A DNA stretch of 64,000 bases, from contig NZ_CP119075.1 of the NCBI RefSeq assembly GCF_029023725.1, positions 3,033,501 to 3,097,500 on the forward strand, given 5' to 3'. This document shows positions 9,667 through 53,410 of the stretch, in pieces; position 1 is the stretch's first letter; every line of letters starts with the position of its first letter. The DNA comes from Synoicihabitans lomoniglobus (lineage in GTDB: Bacteria; Verrucomicrobiota; Verrucomicrobiia; Opitutales; Opitutaceae). The notes below the pieces were generated by a model. That model was not told the DNA's origin, searched no databases, and saw only the letters and a list, made by a program, of their open reading frames with translations. A program made the position numbers and the translations under genes.

Positions 9667-9698
9667 AATCTCCGTTCACTCCTGAACGGAGATTTTTT
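9667..9698. terminator. Bidirectional Rho-independent terminator between tRNA-Asp and ndh
   Basis: A 12-bp perfect stem, AATCTCCGTTCA (9667-9678) with TGAACGGAGATT (9683-9694), has a CTCC loop. It is followed by T6 on the plus strand and flanked by an A/T-rich run (ATTTTTAA) on the other side. It ends tRNA-Asp on the plus strand and the convergent ndh on the minus strand. The last codons and stop of ndh lie inside the stem. Confidence 0.85.
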
Positions 9699-28001: not shown

Positions 28002-28072
28002 ATGTCGGGCATAAAGCCCGACCCACATCGTGGTAGGGCGTGGTCTTGTGGGTCGGGCTTTACGCCCGACAT
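28002..28072. repeat. REP/BIME-like inverted repeat pair between lolD and lolC/E
   Basis: A 26-nt left arm (28002-28027) and a 26-nt right arm (28047-28072) are inverted copies with one mismatch, separated by 19 nt. Each arm is itself a hairpin, GTCGGGC-ATAAA-GCCCGAC (left) and GTCGGGC-GTAAA-GCCCGAC (right), followed by CCACA. This is the head-to-head arrangement of a BIME. It lies 41 nt upstream of the lolD start and 90 nt downstream of the permease stop, so it could alter expression of lolD relative to the permease. Confidence 0.8.
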
Positions 28073-49806: not shown

Positions 49807-51492
49807 GTGCCCCCCAGCCGGTCAGCCCCCCTCCCTCCCGTCAGCGCCGCACGCTTGCCTTCGCTACTCCCCGTAGTGGGGCTGCTGGTCGGTGCCGCCG
49901 TGGTGCTGGGTCTGGCGTTCGCGTGGTGGTTTCCGGCTCCGGACCTGAACCAGGTCGGCCCGACCACGCGGTTCACCGACGTCACCGCCGCTGCCGGCCT
50001 CACCTTCACTCATCGCCACGGCTCCGGCCATTCCCCCACCACCCTCGGCGGTGGCGTGGCCGCGTTCGACTACGACCAGGATGGCTGGACCGACCTGCTC
50101 TTTGTCAATGGGTCCCCGTGGCCGTGGTCCAACAATGCCTGGCAATCTCCCGGCACCAGCGCCCTGTATCATAATAACGGCGACGGTTCCTTCACCGACG
50201 TCACCGCCGCCGCCGGGCTCGATTTTTTGGCCAACGGCATGAGTCCCGCCATCGGCGACTACGATGCGGACGGCTGGCCCGACATCTTCATCACCGCCAT
50301 CGGTGAAAACCGCCTCTTCCGCAATCACGGCGACGGCACATTTCATGAGACGACCAACGTCGCCGGCGTGGCCGGGGAAAACAACACGTGGAGCACCGCC
50401 GCCGTCTGGCTCGATTTCGATCACGACGGACAGCTCGACCTCATCGTCGCGCACTACGCACGCTGGCCGGGTGAACTCGGCCTGGCCGCCGCGTTTTCCG
50501 TGGCTCAAGTCGGTCGTTCCTACGGCGCCCCCGTCGGTTTCGTCGGCGTCGATCCCACCGTGTATCGCAACTTGGGCGACGGTCGGTTTGGCGTCGTGCG
50601 CGATCCGATCGGACTCCGGCACCTCGACGTCAATACCGGGCGCCCCACCGCCAAAACTCTGGCGCTGCGCACGCTCGACGCCAACAACGACGGCCACCTC
50701 GACCTGCACTTCACCTATCACACCGCGCCCGACGCCTGGTTCCTCGCCGAACCGGACGGAACCTTCACCCCGTGGAACCCGACCAGCGAACCCCGCCGCG
50801 AGGGTCTGGCCGCCACCATCACCGCCCCCGGTGCTCTCCCCTTGGCCAGCTTGAGCGATGATACCTTCCTCCAACTCGCGCCCGCTCCCGAAATAATCCT
50901 CCCTCCCTCGCTGGATCTTACGGCCAAACTCGGCGGCAGGCTACTCGACACCGACAACGACGGATACACCGAGTTTTTCGCCGCCGGCGGCCTGGCCGAA
51001 CACGACACCAACATCTTTCCCGACGACTACGAGCCCGGCCGTTTCGCGCACGCGCCACAACTGTGGTGGCGCGAACAATCCTCGTGGACGCCTGCCGCGC
51101 AGATGCCGTCCCTTACCGCCCGCGGCATGGCCACCCTCGACTTCGATGGCGACGGTGATCTCGACATCGCCATCGCGCAAAATGCCGGTCCCGCCAAACT
51201 CCTGCGCAACGACCAACGCATGTCGCTTCCGTGGTTGGCCCTCAAACTCATCGCCACCCGTTCCCATCCCGATGCGTCCGGTGCCCGCATTGAGTTGCAC
51301 ACGCCCCGACGCATTTTTGTGCGCACGGTGGCTCCCGCCACGAGCTACATGGCGCAATCCGAGTCGACGGTGCGCTTCGGGCTCGGCACCGATTCCCGCA
51401 TCAGACGCATCGTCATTCGCTGGCCTTCGGGTCAACGGCAGGAACTCAAGTCCGCCGAACTGAATACCACCCTCACCGTCCGGGAGCCTTAA
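49807..51492 (+). CDS. CRTAC1-type FG-GAP/ASPIC-UnbV repeat protein
   Basis: 561 residues, GTG start at 49807. An N-terminal anchor or signal (LLPVVGLLVGAAVVLGLAFAWWF) places it outside the cytoplasm. Seven-bladed propeller units follow with Ca-binding DxDxDG loops: FDYDQDGWTDLLFVN, GDYDADGWPDIFITA, LDFDHDGQLDLIVAH, LDANNDGHLDLHF, DTDNDGYTEFFAA and LDFDGDGDLDIAIAQ. The C-terminal ASPIC/UnbV domain reads IRRIVIRWPSGQRQEL. Such proteins are abundant in Verrucomicrobiota and Planctomycetota; their roles are unknown. The stop overlaps the 3' end of the copper ATPase gene by 20 bp on the other strand. Confidence 0.85.
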   Translation: MPPSRSAPLPPVSAARLPSLLPVVGLLVGAAVVLGLAFAWWFPAPDLNQVGPTTRFTDVTAAAGLTFTHRHGSGHSPTTLGGGVAAFDYDQDGWTDLLFVNGSPWPWSNNAWQSPGTSALYHNNGDGSFTDVTAAAGLDFLANGMSPAIGDYDADGWPDIFITAIGENRLFRNHGDGTFHETTNVAGVAGENNTWSTAAVWLDFDHDGQLDLIVAHYARWPGELGLAAAFSVAQVGRSYGAPVGFVGVDPTVYRNLGDGRFGVVRDPIGLRHLDVNTGRPTAKTLALRTLDANNDGHLDLHFTYHTAPDAWFLAEPDGTFTPWNPTSEPRREGLAATITAPGALPLASLSDDTFLQLAPAPEIILPPSLDLTAKLGGRLLDTDNDGYTEFFAAGGLAEHDTNIFPDDYEPGRFAHAPQLWWREQSSWTPAAQMPSLTARGMATLDFDGDGDLDIAIAQNAGPAKLLRNDQRMSLPWLALKLIATRSHPDASGARIELHTPRRIFVRTVAPATSYMAQSESTVRFGLGTDSRIRRIVIRWPSGQRQELKSAELNTTLTVREP

Positions 51493-53410
51493 ACGTCGCG
51501 GCAGCACGCGCGACCCCGCGCAACGACCGCACGCCCACCGCCAGACTCGATCCCACCATGAGCAGCGCCGCCACCACGGGATGCAGCCATCCGGCGGCGG
51601 CGAGCATCATGCCCCCGGCATTGTAACTCGCCGCGAAGCGCAGATTGCCATGAATGCCCCGTCGCACCGCTCGCGACAAACGCACCGCCTGCGGCAACAC
51701 CCGCAGGTCATCGCCCAGCATTGTCGCCATGGCCGACGCCCGCACCAGATCCGCGCCGCCGCGAATCGCGATCGAACCCGCCGCGATCGACATTGCGCCG
51801 GCATCGTTCACGCCGTCGCCCACCAGCACCACGGTGCGTCCGCCAGCGATCAACTCCCGCACCCGCGCCGTTTTCTCGGCCGGCGTCAGTCCCGACTTCA
51901 CCGGCACCGTCAATCCCGCCGGCGGATGGGCGTCTCCGGTCAACACTTCGACCGCGACGCCCAGAGCCGCCAGCTCCGTCAACGCCTCGTTCATTCCCTC
52001 GCGCCAACGTTCGCCCAGTTCGATCCACGCAGCCAGCCGGCCGTCGACCGAGACATACACACGCTTCCCGGGATCAGCCGACACTTCGTCCGTAAAGCCG
52101 TGCAACGCCCACTCCCCGACGCGAACCTCCCGCCCCTCCACCGTCACCACCACGCCCGCTCCCGCCTCCACGCGCCGCTCCGCGGCCGCTCCGCGAGTGT
52201 AACCATTATGGTTACACTCGCGAGTTAGTGCCTGGGCGACGGGATGTTGCAGGTCGGACTCGGCGGCGAGGACCGCGGCGCGCAGCCAGGGTTCCCGCGC
52301 TCGCCAGGCGGGTGCGGTGTGCCAGGCCGTGACGACCATGGCGGACTCCGATAGCGTCCCGGTTTTATCGATACACAGCGTGTCGGCCCGACTCAGCGCG
52401 TCGAGGATGTCCCCAGTGCCGGCAACCATGCCGAGCTTGGCCAGCTGGGCCAATCCGCTCCAGACCGCGATCGGTGTGGCCAGACCCATCGCGCAGGGAC
52501 ACGCCACCAGCAGGACGGCCATGGCATGAAACAGCGCTTCATGCCATGGACTGCGCGCGATCCAGAACGCAAAGGTCGCAACACTCACGCCCATGACGAC
52601 GGGCAGAAACCAACGCATCAAGCGATCGGCCTGCGCCTGCAACTGACTCGGGGCCAACCGCGCCTGTTCGACTGCGCTCAGGATCGTATCCAACCGACGC
52701 GGCCCGGCCAATGGCGCGATTTCCAGATCTCCATCGACGGCGTGCGTGCCGGCCAACACGGCATCGCCTGGTCCCCGCGAAACCGGCCGCCATTCGCCCG
52801 TCATCGAGGTTTCCGTCACATAGCTGCGGCCATCCACAATGGTGCCATCAACACCGATGGCTTCACCGGGCGCAACCAACACCCGGTCGTCCGTCGTCAC
52901 CTCGGTAACGGTTTTTTGAATACTTTCTCCCTCGCGCCCTCGAACGCGCACCTGGGCGAACTCCCGGCGCGTGCGATCGACCGCCGACAGGGCTGTGAGC
53001 CGACTCCGCGCGGCGATCATTTTGCCGACCGTGTGCACCGCGATGAGCACAGCGACGACTTCATAATAAATCGCCCCGGTGCGCGTGAACGTGCTCACGA
53101 GCGATCCGGCGAACGCGCCGGTGAGCGTAACCAGAAACAGGAGATCAATGCTGATTTTTCGCTGCCGCAGCGCCGCCATCGCTCCGCGCCCGAGGTCGCC
53201 GCCGAGAAATACGAGCACGCCCAGCGCCGCCGCCATGGAGCCGCCGTGCACCACCCAATAACCGACGCCGTCGGCCGGAGTGACATTGACCGCGAGCCCA
53301 AACACCATCGCCTGCCCGGCCACCGCCATGCCAATGCCGATACGCAACCAGCCACGCGCCACGAGCCGCTCGTCCGCCTGCAGGCCGGGATCGGCGGCGG
53401 TTTCGTTCAT
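51473..53410 (-). CDS. P1B-type copper-transporting ATPase (CcoI/FixI/CopA-like)
   Basis: 645 residues. The catalytic set is present: actuator MTGEW (TGE), metal site ACPCAMG near residue 290, phosphorylation Asp348 in CIDKTGTLS, HP dipeptide in LQHPVAQ, and GDGVNDAG. No N-terminal HMA (CxxC) domain, unlike CopA. The CPC motif and oxidase-locus position suggest Cu(I) export for the CuA or CuB centres of the adjacent caa3 oxidase, as CtpA/CcoI does elsewhere. Residues about 397-407 (RECNHNGYTRG) are encoded by a perfect palindrome (52192-52222) inside the N domain. The 5' end overlaps the FixH/YtkA gene stop by 4 nt. Confidence 0.92.
   Translation of the reverse strand: MNETAADPGLQADERLVARGWLRIGIGMAVAGQAMVFGLAVNVTPADGVGYWVVHGGSMAAALGVLVFLGGDLGRGAMAALRQRKISIDLLFLVTLTGAFAGSLVSTFTRTGAIYYEVVAVLIAVHTVGKMIAARSRLTALSAVDRTRREFAQVRVRGREGESIQKTVTEVTTDDRVLVAPGEAIGVDGTIVDGRSYVTETSMTGEWRPVSRGPGDAVLAGTHAVDGDLEIAPLAGPRRLDTILSAVEQARLAPSQLQAQADRLMRWFLPVVMGVSVATFAFWIARSPWHEALFHAMAVLLVACPCAMGLATPIAVWSGLAQLAKLGMVAGTGDILDALSRADTLCIDKTGTLSESAMVVTAWHTAPAWRAREPWLRAAVLAAESDLQHPVAQALTRECNHNGYTRGAAAERRVEAGAGVVVTVEGREVRVGEWALHGFTDEVSADPGKRVYVSVDGRLAAWIELGERWREGMNEALTELAALGVAVEVLTGDAHPPAGLTVPVKSGLTPAEKTARVRELIAGGRTVVLVGDGVNDAGAMSIAAGSIAIRGGADLVRASAMATMLGDDLRVLPQAVRLSRAVRRGIHGNLRFAASYNAGGMMLAAAGWLHPVVAALLMVGSSLAVGVRSLRGVARAAATFKAPGR
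52192..52222. repeat. Perfect palindrome inserted in frame within the copper ATPase gene
   Basis: Arms CGCGAGTGTAACCA (52192-52205) and TGGTTACACTCGCG (52209-52222) are perfectly complementary with a TTA spacer. The core is AT-rich inside a GC-rich gene. On the coding strand it reads R-E-C-N-H-N-G-Y-T-R without a stop. Position, symmetry and composition point to an inserted palindromic element rather than a conserved domain segment. Confidence 0.8.

Follow-up and report, generated by a model that had tools for sequence, protein, structure and literature searches.

Dispersed palindromes of an untagged family occupy sites shared among species of Opitutaceae and are read in frame in several unrelated genes

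The palindrome within a copper ATPase gene of Synoicihabitans lomoniglobus (genome G000, one contig, 5.93 Mb) belongs to a dispersed family of short, perfectly symmetrical repeats, an identification that is as good as certain. It is also well supported that many of the sites are old and common to the species of the genus, with different variants of the palindrome standing at the same place in different species. The explanation favored here, to which we give an even chance, is that these are untagged palindromes similar to repetitive extragenic palindromes (REPs) and Rickettsia palindromic elements (RPEs), that old sites are rewritten by the variant current in a genome, and that the arms are matched by hairpin-templated copying.

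The window, meaning the whole stretch of 64,000 nt that was analyzed (NZ_CP119075.1, positions 3,033,501 to 3,097,500), provides the coordinates used below unless stated otherwise. An inverted-repeat search identified the perfect 31-bp palindrome CGCGAGTGTAACCATTATGGTTACACTCGCG exactly where an earlier note on this DNA had placed it. The arms, described there as 14 bp long around a 3-nt spacer, are one base longer. The features of the locus are as follows:

52192..52222, no strand: perfect 31-bp palindrome, 15-bp arms around a 1-nt centre, T
52196..52218, no strand: 23-bp family core, AGTGTAACCATWATGGTTACACT
52197-52217: inner 21 bp of the core, with 43 genomic copies (40 exact, 3 with one mismatch)
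52192..52195, no strand: locus-specific outer arm CGCG, paired with CGCG at 52219-52222 and differing among copies
52193..52222, minus strand: codons for residues 397-406, RECNHNGYTR
51473..53410, minus strand: host gene, a P1B-type heavy-metal (probably copper) ATPase of 645 aa

Several properties of the host gene agree with the earlier description. The 645-aa open reading frame (ORF) matches the NCBIfam profile TIGR01525 above its cut-off, as expected of a P1B ATPase, and the copper profile TIGR01511 below it; the palindrome is poorer in GC than the gene around it (52% versus 67%); and besides the coding frame, which gives the predicted peptide, one other frame is open across the 31-mer, the third containing TAA. 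The AlphaFold model (modest confidence, mean pLDDT of 67) places residues 397-406 at the close of helix 390-401 and in the loop preceding strand 409-415. The notion that the sequence had been inserted into the ATPase was not upheld, because the loop aligns without a gap to Archaeoglobus CopA (3j08) and three paralogs, no net insertion being visible, and the ortholog in the relative G002 has the same length (that in G006 is 3 aa shorter). Both of these orthologs, the only two found, are devoid of palindrome and peptide alike (site shared in 0/2 relatives), which disposes of the objection that the residues might be conserved where the DNA palindrome is missing. The same gene also carries a second perfect inverted repeat of unrelated sequence at 52519-52549, with 12-bp arms, CCATGGCATGAA, lying 7 nt apart, and elsewhere in the window positions 9667-9694 form AATCTCCGTTCA, a perfect 12-bp inverted repeat with a 4-nt loop.

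The 43 copies of the 21-bp core, GTGTAACCATWATGGTTACAC, were retrieved from G000 with the pattern GTGTAACCATNATGGTTACAC at up to three mismatches, and the reversed pattern, serving as control, retrieved none. Of the 83 genomic occurrences of the 11-nt half-site AGTGTAACCAT, 81 fall inside palindromes and 2 outside. This identifies the whole palindrome, rather than the arm, as the unit, and it answers the question raised earlier of whether the arm occurs anywhere else. Placement of the copies with a crude codon-usage gene finder assigned 37 of the 43 to intergenic DNA and 6 to ORFs, one of them doubtful (L071). All five convincing in-gene copies read one frame, C-N-H-[NY]-G-Y-T, despite the open second frame. 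Their hosts besides the ATPase are proteins that we take to be an exosortase-like protein, an EamA-type transporter, a DUF1365-like protein, and an NAD-dependent epimerase. A second variant, TTGTCACCTAWTAGGTGACAA, is present at 25 sites in 20 regions of G000; 21 of the sites are intergenic, and the other 4 fall within ORFs. Of the latter, three read CH[LP]IGDK, and the fourth (L339, G000 2005797-2008797) has a changed core and reads VTYWVT in another frame, as part of a hydrophobic stretch in a protein of 516 aa that presumably resembles a long iron-sulphur and membrane protein. The family is a further group, outside the Rickettsiales, in which palindromes supply the same peptide to unrelated proteins, and the earlier proposal of a dispersed, protein-invading palindrome family in the Verrucomicrobiota, with its likeness to the Rickettsia elements, was borne out by the core copies found in frame in several unrelated genes. 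Some palindromes lie within tandem arrays, one per unit, comprising five 90-bp units (L056, 3001-3381) and three 124-bp units (L057, 1991-2259).

Outside the core, the flanks vary by locus and in part continue the pairing. For the first variant, 11 of 37 non-redundant copies pair over at least 5 nt beyond the core, compared with 1.4 expected from shuffles (p of 0.0002 or less). The same run-length test for the second variant gave no significant excess after redundancy filtering (18 of 25 copies kept, p about 0.5); one copy excluded by that filter has an 18-nt extension and forms a perfect palindrome of 53 bp, the longest noted. Counted per base, the outer arms of both variants together display a weak excess of pairing (212 versus 197, sd 9). 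G-T mismatches are not in excess, with 34 observed against 42 in shuffles.

The age of the sites was assessed with G000 as reference by comparing orthologs of the five host genes across seven species of the genus. In the epimerase gene, a palindrome occupies the same codons in 5 of 7 relatives, and two relatives have none. The variants there are AGTGTCACCATATTGGTGACACT, AGTGTCACTTAATAAGTGACACT, TTTGTCATCTAATAGATGACAAA, a TTGTCACGTATTACGTGAC form, and a TTTAACCATATTGGTTATA form. The exosortase-like site carries palindromes, some of them imperfect, in 6 of 7 relatives, including GTTTGTCACCATAATGGTGACAAAC in G005 and GTTTGTCACGTATTACGTGACAAAC in G006, and none in G002. Palindromes are also found in 3 of 5 relatives at the DUF1365-like site, two of them imperfect, and in 1 of 6 at the site in the EamA-type transporter. 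In the DUF1365-like gene of G007 (L156), the peptide CNAYGYA persists over a DNA palindrome that has degenerated to GC-rich codons. Linker lengths vary among the orthologs at the host-gene sites other than that of the ATPase. Another variant, GTTTAACCATATTGGTTAAAC or GTTTAACCAATATGGTTAAAC, stands at places orthologous to G000 copies (L284 in G003, L286 in G004).

Intergenic sites present a similar picture. From nine sites, 43 segments of 450 bp beyond the orthologous gene ends were collected in the relatives (one more was excluded at a contig end, and a tenth segment had no ortholog), and 10 of the 43, at five of the nine sites, contain a palindrome of the superfamily described below. The number expected is 0.18 if copies are evenly spread and 1.5 if all copies are confined to 12% of the genome. 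The loose palindrome detector found 9 matches per 400 kb in G000, 9 in G001, 7 in G007, and 14 in G002 (2, 9, 7, and 3, respectively, when reversed), exceeding its control in G000 and G002 and equalling it in G001 and G007, and since this amounts to only 2 to 14 matches per 400 kb, the background is well below one match in 43 segments. Sites L045, L047, and L054 are empty in all relatives examined, and L065 retains decayed traces only. Two more palindromes of a GTTTAACC type, identified by eye, stand outside these counts.

At eight shared sites, 25 comparisons with G000 yielded 100 arm-pair positions that differ, which are not independent events; at 60 of them both sides have changed and still pair, and the remaining 40 are unpaired. 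The orthologous sites compared revealed no clean pair of an empty and a filled site, no exact empty site, and no target-site duplication such as MITEs leave. Two attributes given to the element in the earlier note, selfishness and active mobility, were not borne out. The same note had nothing on the intergenic majority of the copies, on the old sites common to species, or on sites that switch sequence yet stay palindromic.

An inverted-repeat census covering four genomes of the genus, with 400 kb taken from each, revealed further palindromes of the same plan, which can be written GTMAC-NNN-W-NNN-GTKAC and defines a superfamily with a conserved core of 17 to 23 bp. In G000, the pattern GTMACNNNTNNNGTKAC has 76 matches versus 7 for its control. 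Among 200 genomes sampled from the family, the superfamily is abundant and patchy. The highest totals are those of G061 (118, control 0), G140 (112, control 0), G121 (99, control 3), and G180 (98, control 3), and many genomes are at or below their own control, which reaches 19 in G058. Counts range from 2 to 112 within one genus (g61) and from 0 to 76 within another (g7). Among the places listed, the dominant variants are peculiar to each genome, and among the positions listed for G000, the largest gap is about 350 kb of the 5.9 Mb. Genome G158 has nine close pairs of one asymmetric variant, six of them in the same inverted orientation and 65 to 79 bp apart, with spacer sequences that differ by eye; in at least one pair (L377), the outer flanks of both members are complementary over 10 nt. 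Such pairing is not the rule in G000. A scan of GTDB gave two matches outside the Opitutaceae (L088, L090), about the number that we estimate for chance, and a literature search found no palindromic element described for Opitutaceae. Spread by viruses was considered and rejected, as one variant had no matches among IMG/VR viral contigs and another had 3, again close to our own estimate for chance.

Tagged REPs coexist with the untagged family in G000, with 10 matches of the GTAG form GGTAGGGCGGTTTCGNCGAAACCGCC and 6 of the GTGGGTCGGGCTTTAYGCCCGAC form in 400 kb at up to three mismatches. One RAYT (Y1 tyrosine transposase) gene has GTGG-REPs on both sides, and another has a GTAG-REP no more than 0.5 kb away; the RAYTs next to tagged REPs have open frames of 205 and 206 aa. 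The untagged palindromes have no such association. The tags GTAG, GTGG, and CGTC abut 0 of 136 ends of untagged palindromes, and within 12 nt of these ends they occur 1, 4, and 5 times, respectively. No copy of either untagged variant was located within about 2 kb of any of the 18 Y1 transposase genes in G000, 20 Y1 loci of the genus have one chance-like match within 1.5 kb, and 30 Y1 loci from eight other genomes of the family have one palindrome within 1.5 kb. Other observations concern the tagged elements themselves. Loci of the GTAG-tagged REP include L164 and L173 (G000 160-180 kb and 340-360 kb); positions 28002-28072 of the window are a GTGG-type REP dimer of two GTCGGGC-hairpins in inverted orientation, and at another place in G000 this form flanks a RAYT whose open frame is 206 aa long (L397). 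Many longer Y1 genes of the genus have GGGGTCA-like inverted repeats at their flanks (L113-L116, L119-L125, L129, L130) and resemble the TIRYT type described in PMC3733652.

According to the explanation favored here, many sites would have been inherited from old, the identity of a site outlasting that of its variant. Occasionally, one variant would spread in a lineage, rewriting the existing palindromes and seeding new ones, so that copies at old sites would come to match one another inside any one genome yet differ from one genome to the next. We infer that variants overwrite one another because the G000 copies are identical at sites where orthologs carry other variants. The element would act through its hairpin, the core being recognized by a putative enzyme of hairpin DNA, whether single-stranded or cruciform, and template switching within the hairpin would copy one arm onto the other, leaving arms that are matched and extended as the locus-specific outer arms. 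The attribution of the copying to an enzyme acting on hairpins and to template switching is proposed here; the arms of inverted repeats are reported to be homogenized by template switching (PMC8604942). No mobilizing enzyme was found among the Y1 genes of G000, of the genus, and of the eight other genomes of the family. Within genes, the palindromes would be tolerated in frames free of stops, where most would encode a hydrophilic peptide located in a variable loop or linker.

Other explanations account for part of these observations. A chance palindrome in one gene could draw only on the lone copy in the window, where the arm has, apart from its own two copies, one match with two mismatches (0.32 expected), and it is ruled out for all practical purposes by the 43 genomic copies against a control of 0. 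Hairpins acting in RNA, as terminators or mRNA stabilizers whose pairing is kept in the transcript, would explain the compensatory changes and the many copies near gene ends. This is nevertheless very improbable, as copies also lie between divergent genes (8 of 37 for the first variant and 4 of 21 for the second), the outer arms lack the G-T excess, and the flanks inspected contain no consistent T-run by eye. REPs or REPINs of the ordinary sort, mobilized by a RAYT but having lost their tag, would fit the size, the intergenic bias, and the inverted close pairs of G158, as well as the reported abundance of GTAG-REPs in Opitutus terrae, genes included (PMC3733652). The absence of an abutting tag at every end inspected, and of linkage to the Y1 genes of G000, where tagged REPs adjoin two RAYTs, makes this improbable.

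The palindromes may instead be sites for a dimeric chromosomal protein, such as a nucleoid-occlusion, macrodomain, or global regulator, fixed in place by selection and co-evolving with that protein. Perfect dyad symmetry, a strict core, conserved places, and tens of copies spread over the chromosome, with gaps of at most about 350 kb among the listed positions, are what such sites would display, and a similar picture could arise if every site were under strong selection for a binding protein that evolves along with it. Against it, each genome contains several variants, the counts within a genus differ widely, units are repeated in tandem arrays of 5 and 3, and the locus-specific palindromic outer arms would be superfluous for protein binding, so that we consider it unlikely. 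The rewriting of old sites by a current variant remains the favored explanation. Its stronger form posits a DNA replicator, about 23 bp in size, whose current master variant overwrites its own predecessors genome-wide in a process directed by the hairpin and independent of tagged REPs and RAYTs; this form is doubtful, with rather more weight against it than for it. If true, sites would be inherited for longer than species last while the word standing at them is replaced. Beyond the RAYT-REPs, little is established about how short dispersed palindromes are copied and maintained in bacteria, and here the sites, the variants, and the compensatory changes can be traced family-wide, which makes spread, overwriting, and hairpin-templated correction separately measurable.

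Among known systems, the RPEs are similar in being self-complementary repeats that lie in frame in unrelated proteins, mostly as one peptide, and also between genes. They measure 105 to 150 bp in the accounts given in PMC2229807 and PMC10969869, whereas the family described here has a core of about 23 bp (21 to 23) with variable arms and no palindrome noted above 53 bp; its copies are mostly intergenic, and its sites are common to species with switched variants. The GTAG- and CGTC-REPs share the palindromes of 20 to 40 bp, the tens of copies, mostly intergenic with some in genes, and the occasional close pairs, and the inverted close pairs of G158 recall REPINs. They differ from the untagged family, which has neither an abutting tag nor linkage to a RAYT and has perfect symmetry around a W centre. 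Opitutus terrae is rich in GTAG-REPs, also inside genes, in the description of PMC3733652, and identity of its GTAG-17, -19, or -20 with the untagged family seems unlikely; a literature search under the name of this species gave no paper on its extragenic palindromes. The palindromes are filed neither as RPEs nor as REPs, since for each kind a defining feature was looked for and is lacking here. PMC3733652 also lists untagged REP-like palindromes of Bordetella, Brucella, cyanobacteria, and others, which by description are likewise palindromic repeats with no terminal tag. The striking features of the present family are that its sites are shared while the variants change and that it contributes a set of peptides read in frame.
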